DNA of 64,000 nt from Psococerastis gibbosa (lineage: Eukaryota > Arthropoda > Insecta > Psocodea > Psocidae), in assembly GCA_963971405.1 (NCBI GenBank), contig OZ020489.1, positions 18,254,290 to 18,318,289 on the forward strand, read 5' to 3'. This document shows positions 76 through 54,400 of this stretch, in pieces. Below the pieces are notes generated by a model. It saw only the letters and a list, made by a program, of their open reading frames with translations, did no database searches and was not told the origin of the DNA. Each line of letters opens with the position of its first letter. The stretch's first letter is position 1. Both the position numbers and the translations under genes were made by a program.

Positions 76-3000
76 GCCTACCGTTTTGCGAAGCCATCGA
101 CATGTGGTCGCTTGGATGCGTGGTGGCAGAGTTGTTTCTTGGCTGGCCTCTCTACCCTGGATCTTCGGAGTACGATCAGATTCGGTACATAAGCCAAACT
201 CAGGGACTCCCCACGGAAAACATGCTCAACAACGCAAGCAAGACCACCAAATTCTTTTACCGTGATATGGACAGCACTTACCCCTTTTGGAGACTTAAGG
301 TGAGTTCCAGTACAGTACCAGGGGTAATGAGATTTCTTTAGATGGGCTTTGCGTGGGATTTAAAACGGTGAAAATCTCCTGTTTCGATCGAGCCCCTACA
401 CCTCCATATGATTTACTTGCGGAAGCAGGGGACTAATAGAAAAACGCCATATTTAGGCCTTAAACTTTCGCGCCAAATGAAAATCAATAGTTTTCTTATG
501 GTACCTAAACCAAGATTTTTAAAACTAAAAAAATGTGTCTTTATTAAATATTTAGGCTGCCTAACTTTACTAAATGATAAATAAATGATAAATATGCTTT
601 CCCAAAATAGCTGAAAATTATGTGGATTAAAAATAAACAATAGCATCAAATAAGTTCAATCATCCAAAACAGCAACTGTACTGTGCCCTATGAAATTTCA
701 AATGTAGCAAATGCAAAATAAAATTATAGGCAACAAAAAGGCATTTTCTCTTAATTTTTAAATAAAATACAGAATACCCCCTGCTGTGAGCCCACACGTG
801 GCGAAATTAAATGACCATGCGACACTAGCGCCAATCGTTCTTCTAGTGTATTATATAAGTTCTTTGGTTTCGATTGATGGGTACAATGACAACATCATTA
901 TATTGCTCCTTTGTGTCCAGACAAAGGTAACTATTTGTTGTATTTCCTTAAAGTTCTGAGAGGATTCGTTAGGCGGGGTTTCCACCGACCTCGTGTTGCA
1001 GAATGCACATGACGTTGACCTGGTAGCAGACATAATTAATAAGTCTTTAATGTCGGCTACCTCGTCAACGTCATGTGCATTCTGCAATACGAGATCGGTG
1101 GAAACCCCGTCTTAAAGTACTAATATTTTTTTGATAACCAACAGACCCCAGAAGAGCATGAAGCGGAAACGGGTATTAAGTCGAAGGAAGCGCGGAAGTA
1201 CATATTCAATTGCCTGGACGATATCGGTCAAGTTAACGTACCTACGGACCTGGAAGGCGGAGAGCTGTTAGCAGAGAAAGCGGATCGGAGGGAATTCATT
1301 GATCTTCTCAAACGCATGCTCACCATGGACCAGGTGGCAATATTTAGTTCGTTTATATTCATAAAACAGGTCCTTTATGATTGGCACAGCCTATCCTTAC
1401 TCCCTCGTGTATTCTTATTAGAGGCATACATGCCAGACTCAGCTTCCTGTCGTCAATGGCCGCCGACGGTAGGTTGTAGGTTTCAAGGACGCAACCCATC
1501 GATTTTCATGGTGTTAGTATTTGTGTTTTAGTATGTTCAGTCTTTAGGTGGCCATTATTTCGTTAGTAAGCTGTGGTCTTGAATGTTTTGTGAATGTTCA
1601 CAGGAGAGGCGGATTATGCCCGGTGAAGCACTGAACCACGCTTTCGTAACGCTCGCCCACCTCCTTGACTACGCCCACTGCAACAACGTAAAAGCTGGCG
1701 TTCAGATGATGGAGGTAATCGTATATCTTTAGATGTTATTATTATCTCAATAAAGTTCTCGGAAGGGCTTAAGATATAAAAACAAGTCGAGATGTTCCAA
1801 CAAGGAATATGTCGTTTATAGCTTTATCTTTAAATGTTAAAACTCTGTCTCAATAATGTTCTCGGAAGGGTGGAAGACAGAAAAACACGTTCTAAAAAGG
1901 AACATATAGTTTTTGCTTTTTTATATTGTCTTGCCGAACGATCTAAGGCCAGTTTTACACATAAGCGATTTTGTCCGCTCGATATTAATGAGATTTAAAA
2001 GTGTTTGCCGTGTACTTACGAGAGAGGTCGCTTTTAAGTCTCTTTAGTGCCTCGTTGCCCTTGAGTGGCCCAGACAACGGCTAGAAAAAAACCCTGCCTA
2101 ATTACTGTCGGCAGATTATTGCATTGATTATTATGGTGTTTCAAATGTTTTGAATATGTAGTTATTTGGTCTTGGACATAACGTTGCATTGTTTATCGGC
2201 TTCGGTGGTAGCGTGCTTGTACTTGTGCTAATTTCTACACATCATGCGATTGGAGAAGTGTCGCAACTCAACACGAGTACTAACCTACAGAGGTGACTGA
2301 AGAGGTCAATTGGATACAACCAGTACATTGTTTTTGTGTGCGATTAACCTTACGTTAAAATACAAAAATTTGAAGGTTCGTACACAAATAATTAAATTAA
2401 TTTTTCTGATTGGCCTCTTCAGTCTACAACATGTGTTTCTTTTGTTAGGTTTGCCGTCGAAATGGTATCGGAAGTAGCAACTCAAGCAACCATCACCAGA
2501 CGGCAGCACCTGCGCCTCCCTTGGTCAACCTGGTCCCATCATCCACTGGCAACGTCACCCTCACCTTCAACAATCAGGTCCAGAGGTCTGGGTTCCCTGC
2601 TGACAATTTGGTTCGTTTTAATTGTATACTAGTAACCTTATTACATCAGAAACATCAAAATAAATCACAAGAATCAGGAAAGACCATAAAATAGGTGGGT
2701 AAATACAATATAATTCAGAATTCCAATTTGACTTACGTAAGCGAAAACCTCCGGAACTGGAAGAAGAAGAAAGCTTTTGAGCTTGCAGCAACCAAACCTC
2801 TCAATTGACTTCAGAGTTAGATGAAATATATTATTTATCTTTTAATAAAAATCCATTGAAAACTGCCTTGCTATATTTTTTGCAAACTGACACAGGCAAA
2901 ACTGATAATTTTTCTGGCTTTTCTATCTAACCAAACACGGTGAGATTGACTGTAGTTGTAAATGGCGTTCATTGCTAGGAAATTGAGTTATAATAATTTG

Positions 3001-51400: not shown

Positions 51401-54400
51401 AATTTCGTTGCTAGGTTTTCCCAGAAGCGAAACTAAAACTAATCTAAAACAAAGGAATAAAAATATAAAAAATTAAATTACTCATGACTTCGTGGTATTT
51501 CATTTCAATAAACAAATAAATTATGTTTACTTTTTATGAAAACCGTATTTTGGCCTCACATCGAGCAGCATTGTTTTGTCCCTACTCCTTCCTACCTTCC
51601 TTGGGTGCTAAGAATATTGTGGTACGTACCTCCTCTATAATCCAGTCAGTCATTTGTTTTTCAAATCTGGCGTGACGATATGTTCCACCCATGTTGTTAT
51701 TAAAATACATGTATCGCAGCCCGACTCGGTAGATCCTCCGACTCTCTCTATCAATGTTGTGCTTCCATAACAATTCCGCTGTTTTTGACCAATACGTGTC
51801 ACATAATTTTTTATCCGGCGTTTTTAAGCATCTGATAGTTTAATATGAAATAAATTAACAATGCGATTTCAGTTAAATTATTTAATTCTCCTACAGGTTA
51901 ATTGCTGAAATCGGTTTAGACATACGATTTATACCTATACGAAATACACGATGTACGTATCTGTAGCTCCAGCCTCCAATGGAAACTAATAACTTACCCG
52001 GGGGAGTTATTAACACCATATAAATACAGTATTAAAACCAACCCATTTCAATGCAGACGAAATTGTCATGAAAGTGTCATGCTCAGCCCAAAAGAAGCAA
52101 ACCATTCTTCTACATCTGGCATAAGCAACAATAAACAGCAATTAATTTCTGCTGATAACCAATTTTTGATTCCAATTTTTATTCAGATTTACACTTATTC
52201 CCGGATAAGTGATTTTTTCCGTCGGTGCTAGGCCTACTGTTTGTCTTTCGAACAAAGTAGTGCTGTGTAACTGCAAAGGCTTTCACGGCCGGAGTCAAAT
52301 GAAGAACCAGTAGAATCCGGGCTGATGGGCCGGATTCTACTGGTTCTTCAAAGTAGTGCTGTATGCTGTAAGTACAATAATTAGAGTGAAATAAAAATAA
52401 TGGTTGACGTTCTGTCTACGCTAAGCTTATGAGGAAACGCCTTAGCTTTGCCATATTCGGTGACAGGAATAGTGTAGTTGTATAAAAAGCGAATATTTCT
52501 AAATCATGCGACAACATTTACTATCGTGCTTGATCCATGGCATACCCAGAGGCGGATTTACCAATTTGCTGCCCTATCCACAACCAAAGGAGAGTGGGGG
52601 CTCGTTCCCTGCAGTCCATCTGCCCACGCCACTCGCCACATAGACTTTGACTACCTACACAGTTTTTATCCATCATCAATTTATTACTCGGCAAAACAAA
52701 TCAAAAACTTTATTTTTGGCCGCTTTTTAAAATTTGCCACTCCGGCCCATCTGTAAATAAATTGCCAATGGGCATAGGTACCTGGTGACCAGATGAAAAT
52801 AATAGGTTGACAAAATACTTATTTCTGTGAAGATCTAGGCATAGGTAGAAACGAAGAAATGCTTACCTTAAAATTTGAAACAGTGAAGCCATGGTAGAAG
52901 CGAAATACCCTGAGTTCAATTCTTCTTCAAATATTTTCTTGATTTCTGTTTTTTCATGAAAATTGGCAAACTGTGCTGCACATGATAGGACACTAACGTT
53001 GATTTCTTTATCATATACTGGACTCGACGATGATAAATAACTTTTAATCGCTTCCGCGGCTTCAACTGCCACACACGCTGGCTCTAAGTGAATGTGAAAT
53101 GCCTACATCAGACAGTTAATAAAATGTTAACATTCATTTGAAAGACCACTAAATAGGAGGAAGCAGTGCCAGCATGTTTTGGATATGGGTGCTGGCATAA
53201 AAAAAGATAATCGGCATTTAATAGACGAAATCAGGGCAGATTGTCATTGGCCCATACGAACTTGACGTTAACCTATACTAGCGTGTAGAGTTCAGAACAC
53301 CTTCTTGTACAGATTGTACTGTAACGCTATAAAAACGGATGTTTATTTACCTTGGTTAAGGTGACTATATCCTTTATTTCAAGTTTATGAATGTGGTCTT
53401 TCAGTTTTAACGATATGAGACGAACCAAAGAAATATTTTCATTCGACCAGAATGGACGTGACAACAAAGAAATAGATTTGATTAATCCTTTCCAGACCTC
53501 AGGCGTCGACTCCGGCCAGTTAGCAAATTCTTCGGATATCTTTTTGTACCTAAAAAATATTTATTCCAGATTTGGCAAGAAATATGAAATTGAAGGCTTA
53601 GCAGACATTAAAGACATACTTAAAATTCTGCTATCACGTCAAAACCATATTTCTCATTGACGATTGACGTATATGGAAACCCCGCCTAAGTGGATCCTTC
53701 CACCCCAGGGCTCCATCATTATTTGAGGGGCCTTTTAGGCGGGGTTTACACCGACGTCAATGGTGATAGTAATGGAGATATTGACGTGATTGACGTGGTA
53801 GCAGACATTGAAGAGTCTAAAAATGTCAGCTACCACGTCAATATCACCATTACTATCAATATTGACGTCGGTGTAAACCCCGCCTAATGGACGTAGACCA
53901 TTTTAGTGAACCTTGCCCAGAAAACGTTTTAGTAATAGAACATAAAGTCCTTATTTGAACGGACATTATTGGTATTGTTTCCGCGGGCATTGGTAAAATG
54001 GTTTACGTCCTCTATGTCAACCCACACGGACTACAAATGACAGTGGATAAGCTGAGACATGCAGCACATCACGGCGCCTGTTAAAAATTGCAAGGAAATA
54101 TAGGCTATTTTCGGGCAGACCCCTTCACCACAGGGTGAAGGGGAGTTGATTGAAAGGGTGGGCCTCCTTATTATAGTGTATCCCGCACCACTTGGGGAAC
54201 CGATTAATTCGAACAGTCGTAAAGTCGCCCGATTAATTCGGAGGTGACAAGGACTCGACACGCACTATGACTGACTGGTGGTCTCAGCGCGTCATCATGT
54301 CACACCATGTTCCCCTGCCAACGCTGTGCACACTACCAAGTTTGCTGCAGTTTTTAAGGGTCTGTTCAGATGGATTCAACTAGGTGTGACCATTGGCGGT

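Follow-up and report, generated by a model that had tools for sequence, protein, structure and literature searches.

The window analysed here, a 64,000-nucleotide stretch of the 409-Mb genome of Psococerastis gibbosa (C14:18254290-18318289; contig OZ020489.1), contains six foldback elements that are near-perfect hairpins of 122 to 147 bp. Their arms are 90% to 97% complementary, their DNA folds have z scores of -17.6 to -23.8, and none of 200 shuffles of each copy folded equally well. The core motif occurs 12 times in the window, against 0.00 expected by chance, and the end motif 17 times, against 0.57 (up to 3 mismatches allowed in both cases). The six foldbacks listed in a preliminary description of this DNA were therefore confirmed. 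The outer ends and core that it assigned to all six are supported by the motif enrichment, except that at 25698 the GGCGGGGTTTCC left end is missing and the right end alone is retained. Two composite copies (16034-16419 and 44699-45082) and a damaged copy (~53578-53690) were absent from that description (Table 1).

Table 1. Copies of the foldback family in the window
Copy	Position	Strand	Inverted repeat found	3-bp flanks	Features
Simple hairpin, subfamily A2	972..1111	-	971-1112	TTA/TTA	Tip ATTAAAGACTTATTAAT
Simple hairpin, type B	8429..8568	+	8426-8571	TAA/TTA, unequal	Unmatched arm bases TTTTTGAGCG / TTTTTTAACG
Composite copy	16034..16419	.			Outer-hairpin arms resemble two different subfamilies, 11 differences; longer A-like element within tip
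Simple hairpin, type D	23326..23467	+	23322-23471	TAA/TAA	Sole arm difference GACGTTTTAGC / GACGTGGTAGC beside core
Simple hairpin, type A arms	25701..25833	+	25701-25826		Without left terminal GGCGGGGTTTCC; right end kept; outside parsed set
Simple hairpin, type C	34511..34632	+	34510-34633	TAA/TAA	GGCGYAAAGTCC ends; right arm 6 bases shorter than left
Composite copy	44699..45082	.			J-type outer arms around A-like inner element
Damaged type-D-like copy	53578..53690	+			Adjoins type-E copy
Simple hairpin, type E	53738..53884	+	53735-53887	TTA/TAA, unequal	9-base tandem duplication in one arm

The elements of this family are ~120 to 150 bp long and almost wholly palindromic, with GGCG..TTCCACC ends (GGCGNNNNTTCCA), a variable mid-arm, TGACGTGGTAGCAGACATT beside the tip, and a TWA-centred 3-bp target site. 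The terminal bases depend on the subfamily (GGCGGGG, GGCGCCC, GGCGCTT, GGCGCGG, or GGCGTAAAG). Exact TWAGGCGGGGTTTCCAC ends were found 10,224 times genome-wide (5079 forward and 5145 reverse), and 757 simple copies are intact, with both ends exact and TWA on each side. Sampling of five chromosomes with twelve 10-kb tiles placed at round coordinates (L028-L039) yielded 10 copies by eye, from which a very rough extrapolation gives ~30,000 copies. The elements are short and non-coding, have terminal inverted repeats (TIRs), and occur in high copy number, as do miniature inverted-repeat transposable elements (MITEs). Foldbacks of the FB type carry internal tandem-repeat arrays in their long arms. 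No such arrays were found in the six window copies, whose arms are ~60 bp long and in which Tandem Repeats Finder detected one 9-base duplication (53780-53797) and nothing further; the arms differ by an indel in the copies at 34511 and 53738. The family is best read as a PIF/Harbinger-like, TWA-targeting palindromic MITE, a new family of a known kind with no transposase linked to it, and it is presumably moved by a PIF/Harbinger-type transposase. In a composite copy enlarged to ~1.7 kb (L025:3352-5033), two of the reading frames gave only weak RVT_3 and RNase_H matches below the curated cut-offs and no transposase domain; no genome-wide transposase search was run.

According to the preliminary description, the mid-arms are specific to each copy, and the two arms of a copy should be closer to each other than to any arm of another copy. 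Neither statement held. The four mid-arm types tested recur genome-wide with tens to hundreds of matches each (115+98, 75+68, 476+455, and 45+33 forward plus reverse arm matches, with up to 2 mismatches allowed), and many of these are accompanied by a partner at a fixed spacing. Parsing gave 64 pairs, 17 of them composites; seven were dropped (five composites with a misread arm start, a false pairing in L007, and a truncated arm in L057), and the later counts cover the remaining 45 simple and 12 composite copies. Loci L046, L049, L051, and L056 and the window copy at 25701 were unparsed and lie outside the nearest-arm test, the flank sample, and the trees. Across the 57 parsed copies, just 16 of the 90 simple arms had their own partner as the strictly nearest arm and 11 had it tied with another, whereas an arm of another copy was nearer for 63; the corresponding figures for the 24 composite arms were 6, 5, and 13. 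Many of the partner-nearest cases belong to types sampled by one member. Genome-wide recurrence and the nearest-arm test together rule out copy-specific arms, and the matched arms appear to be mostly inherited from the founder of each subfamily. Matched arms in a few scattered copies are thus no demonstration of homogenisation copy by copy.

The same applies to the altered terminal bases of the copy at 34511, which had been described as compensated at the opposite end. Copies with an altered end on both sides do exist (13 pairs among the 100 matches listed), but this is the end of a subfamily, with 57+57 occurrences, and the two ends at 34511 mismatch at one base (GGCGTAAAG / GGCGCAAAG). Altered ends are present on both C-type and E-type arms, indicating that matched modules have been reshuffled.

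How the arms change was examined at two levels. Private changes were counted in 29 copies from six subfamilies of three or more (B2, with two copies, was omitted), and 56 of them affected a single arm and 2 were matched. Because private changes are mostly single-arm, resident copies have not been homogenised to a large extent, and continuous homogenisation in place is ruled out as the main process. The consensus arms of the subfamilies differ mostly in both arms at once (doubled/single changes: A/A2, 3/2; B1/B4, 4/0; B1/B2, 2/0), with A/A3 (0/3) and B1/B6 (3/3) as counter-cases. On the internal branches of the trees, identical changes in both arms numbered 11 on 5 of 36 branches in the A+B set (38 copies), against 0.31 expected, and 33 on 14 of 43 branches among all 45 simple copies, against 1.07 expected. 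With indel columns omitted, the substitutions alone gave 11 against 0.34 and 29 against 0.77, respectively. In a slightly different reconstruction, the doubled-to-single ratios for A+B were 12:22 on internal branches and 4:82 on tip branches; for all simple copies they were 33:32 and 25:124, respectively.

Pairs of types B and C were also read by eye, omitting a divergent pair on C12 (16492696/16492925). The 100 type B matches listed, out of 213, contained 19 pairs; the first diagnostic base agreed between the arms in all 19 and the second in 18. Of the 20 B loci fetched, 17 had both arms readable, and there the two bases agreed in 15 and 16, respectively. The diagnostic base of type C was matched in 13 of the 14 pairs with both arms among the 100 matches listed, out of 143 (Fisher P, 0.005).

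The hairpin tip provides a further marker. Its asymmetric form (LR), with ATTAAAGAC on one side and ATTTTTAGAC on the other, occurs in 988 exact instances (505+483), while perfect-palindrome tips composed of two left halves (LL) or two right halves (RR) occur in 39 and 110 exact instances, together 13% of the three classes. Since at least two substitutions and one indel separate the halves, LL and RR tips are not single mutations; they are what arm-to-arm copying would leave. The B2 copies read combine a left-left tip (exact in L046 and mutated in L047 and L048) with matched mid-arms, and L025:1484 has a right-right tip and one arm difference. In two altered-end copies with a left-left tip, the arm spacings of 33 and 39 bases fit C- and E-type arms, which suggests that left-left tip events have recurred.

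These observations are best accommodated if source lineages were occasionally re-palindromised by arm-to-arm copying within the foldback and then amplified, which we consider the probable course of events, although not a firmly established one. A founder would gain new matched arms when, on rare occasions, one of its arms was copied over the other. Snap-back template switching, hairpin-primed synthesis, and conversion within the foldback are the likely routes, at times by way of the tip. Transposition would then amplify the re-palindromised version as a subfamily, and after insertion the arms of each copy would mutate largely independently. The copying would be intra-element, would turn an asymmetric tip into LL or RR, and would take place in or near active source elements. 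The preliminary description had proposed a process that copies one arm onto the other in general. This is partly supported: doubled internal-branch changes and LL/RR tips point to it in founders, but the private changes indicate that in resident copies it acts little or not at all.

Several observations weigh against this interpretation. Doubled changes exceed expectation on tip branches as well (4 against 0.40 in A+B and 24 against 2.08 in all simple copies, the latter mostly in types sampled once; for substitutions only, 4 against 0.37 and 19 against 1.35). Eight of the 11 doubled A+B changes fall on two deep branches and may represent few events, and 22 internal A+B changes are single-arm, so that matching is not enforced in each cycle. 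Subfamilies A, A2, A3, and B6 have spread with 1 to 3 unmatched diagnostic positions each, and both type D copies read have one unmatched stretch in common. The preliminary description had itself named subfamilies with unmatched arms as evidence against its proposal, and such subfamilies were found in part; together with the chimeric composite at 16034-16419 they indicate that matching is not enforced. The LL and RR copies read, with 1, 3, and 1 own-arm differences, are not clearly closer in their arms than the LR copies (0 to 9). Sampling favoured matched arms: the type A copies are the best matches to a query that was itself palindromic, and both arms were already listed for 8 of the 20 B loci when these were chosen. 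Finally, arm copying is deduced from footprints, and no event was observed directly.

Exchange between different copies, by ectopic conversion or crossing-over that joins the left arm of one copy with the right arm of another, could also generate LL and RR tips, reshuffled modules, and matched arms. The chimeric copy at 16034-16419, with outer arms 11 differences apart that resemble two subfamilies, is in line with such exchange, as are the altered ends on both C and E arms and the very high number of exact ends. However, it predicts many chimeric simple hairpins, whereas by eye nearly all parsed simple copies were of a single type (the main exception being L020:7916), and exchange alone places no identical new base in both arms; we regard it as unlikely to be the principal source of the matched arms. 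It is also conceivable that no copying takes place and that the arms mutate independently, with selection for transposase binding or hairpin formation favouring the amplification of mainly re-complemented elements. The existence of subfamilies with one-arm changes agrees with this, and a few later changes do bring the arms back into agreement (in A+B, 7 on internal and 2 on tip branches). Yet doubled internal changes are about thirtyfold above chance, LL and RR tips require two substitutions and an indel, and unmatched subfamilies amplify as well, which makes mutation with selection quite unlikely. The process implied by the preliminary description, continuous homogenisation of the arms in every resident copy, would fit the high complementarity of the six window copies and the tip-branch doubled changes, which, although few, exceed the independent expectation about tenfold. 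The predominance of single-arm private changes and the 63 of 90 simple arms with a nearer arm in another copy leave it very improbable.

TWA flanks predominate around the copies. Among the 757 intact TWA-flanked copies, the flanks are equal in 553, against about half expected for unrelated TWA flanks, and unequal at the central W in 204 (27%; 95% interval, 24% to 30%). These equal flanks, together with seven sampled copies that repeat a non-TWA 3-mer, support a 3-bp target-site duplication (TSD). A sample of 57 copies is less clear-cut and counts against such a duplication, with 23 equal flanks (16 TWA and 7 non-TWA), 13 that are TWA but unequal, and 21 otherwise unequal. Central-base-unequal flanks were also seen at the window copies 8429-8568 and 53738-53884. 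Because both ends are exact in the count of 757, mutation alone seems too weak to account for 27% unequal flanks. The few copies available gave no support to the idea that flanks become unequal as a side effect of post-insertion arm copying: mean own-arm distances were 3.6 in 16 TSD-equal and 3.0 in 13 TSD-unequal TWA copies, and mean inverted matches at flank bases 4 to 8 were 0.9 and 1.6 of 5, respectively, both too few to decide. Arm copying might instead be part of the transposition cycle, with a snap-back-copied foldback as intermediate and a donor TWA overhang joined to the target TWA, the central mismatch being resolved at random. In a simple version by our own calculation, joining of overhangs with a W:W mismatch predicts about 25% unequal flanks from equal donors and about 33% at equilibrium. 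We consider this extension distinctly improbable; if true, it would explain both the doubled changes of source lineages and the 27% central-base-unequal flanks. Unequal TWA flanks could be used to test how end joining proceeds in TWA-targeting elements.

Composites are common; most have a longer A-like element lodged in the tip of a hairpin with J-type arms and are perhaps derived from one founder insertion. Composites with the J-type hairpin (CAAGACTTA / TAAGTCTTG in most) were observed in the window at 16034-16419 and 44699-45082 and in L021, L022, L024, L025, L028, L033, L035, L038, and L039. Elsewhere in the window, a longer inverted-repeat family with GGCGGC ends is present at 15751-16009 and 24507-24788, with a tip similar to the type A tip (GTAGCAGACATCATTAATAAGTC or close variants of it), and a 124-bp unit occurs in 1.9 tandem copies (94% matches) at 11225-11500, with inverted-repeat arms in the same stretch. 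An Rfam search of the window gave only a tRNA. Of the 10 longer reading frames tested, 4 had no match; the matches obtained were to reverse transcriptase, RNase H, a class II tRNA synthetase, and a Yip1 domain.

A literature search with partial journal coverage returned no description of this MITE family or of natural central-base-unequal TWA flanks. Tourist-like MITEs, such as mPing, are short, non-coding elements with terminal inverted repeats. The PIF/Harbinger Tourist-like MITEs appear to share with the present family a 3-bp TTA/TAA target; in mPing, overhangs derived from the TSD remain after excision, and transposition drops when unequal TSDs are engineered (PMC4561436). In contrast to these elements, the present family is nearly all arm, has no linked transposase, and shows central-base-unequal flanks at more than a quarter of its intact copies. 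Galileo and Tetris foldbacks also have long inverted-repeat arms. In the Galileo table, within-copy TIR similarity is seen in two of four copies: the two TIRs are 0.2% apart in copy 1 and 0.7% apart in copy 2, against mostly 2% to 7% between copies, while they are dissimilar in copies 4 and 5, which lie at inversion breakpoints (PMC2775673). For Tetris, within-copy homogenisation of the repeats was suggested as possible (PMC4079207). The elements described here differ from both in being ~140 bp long, without tandem-repeat arrays, and in having matched arms as subfamily traits.

Related processes have been described outside foldback transposons. Quasi-palindrome mutations make imperfect inverted repeats perfect (PMC3820800), hairpin stems can arise and be maintained through template switching (PMC8794818), and the inverted structure of Caenorhabditis inverted repeats is better conserved than their sequence (PMC1803023). 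The template-switch systems are yeast reporter genes and RNA genes, whereas the footprints reported here are spread over a transposon family, and the Caenorhabditis repeats are long and gene-scale, whereas the present family is a MITE. With these three cases on record, arm re-matching is a known kind of process. Thousands of ~140-bp hairpins with an asymmetric tip marker offer a large natural data set for it, one in which arm copying can be assigned either to source lineages or to resident copies.

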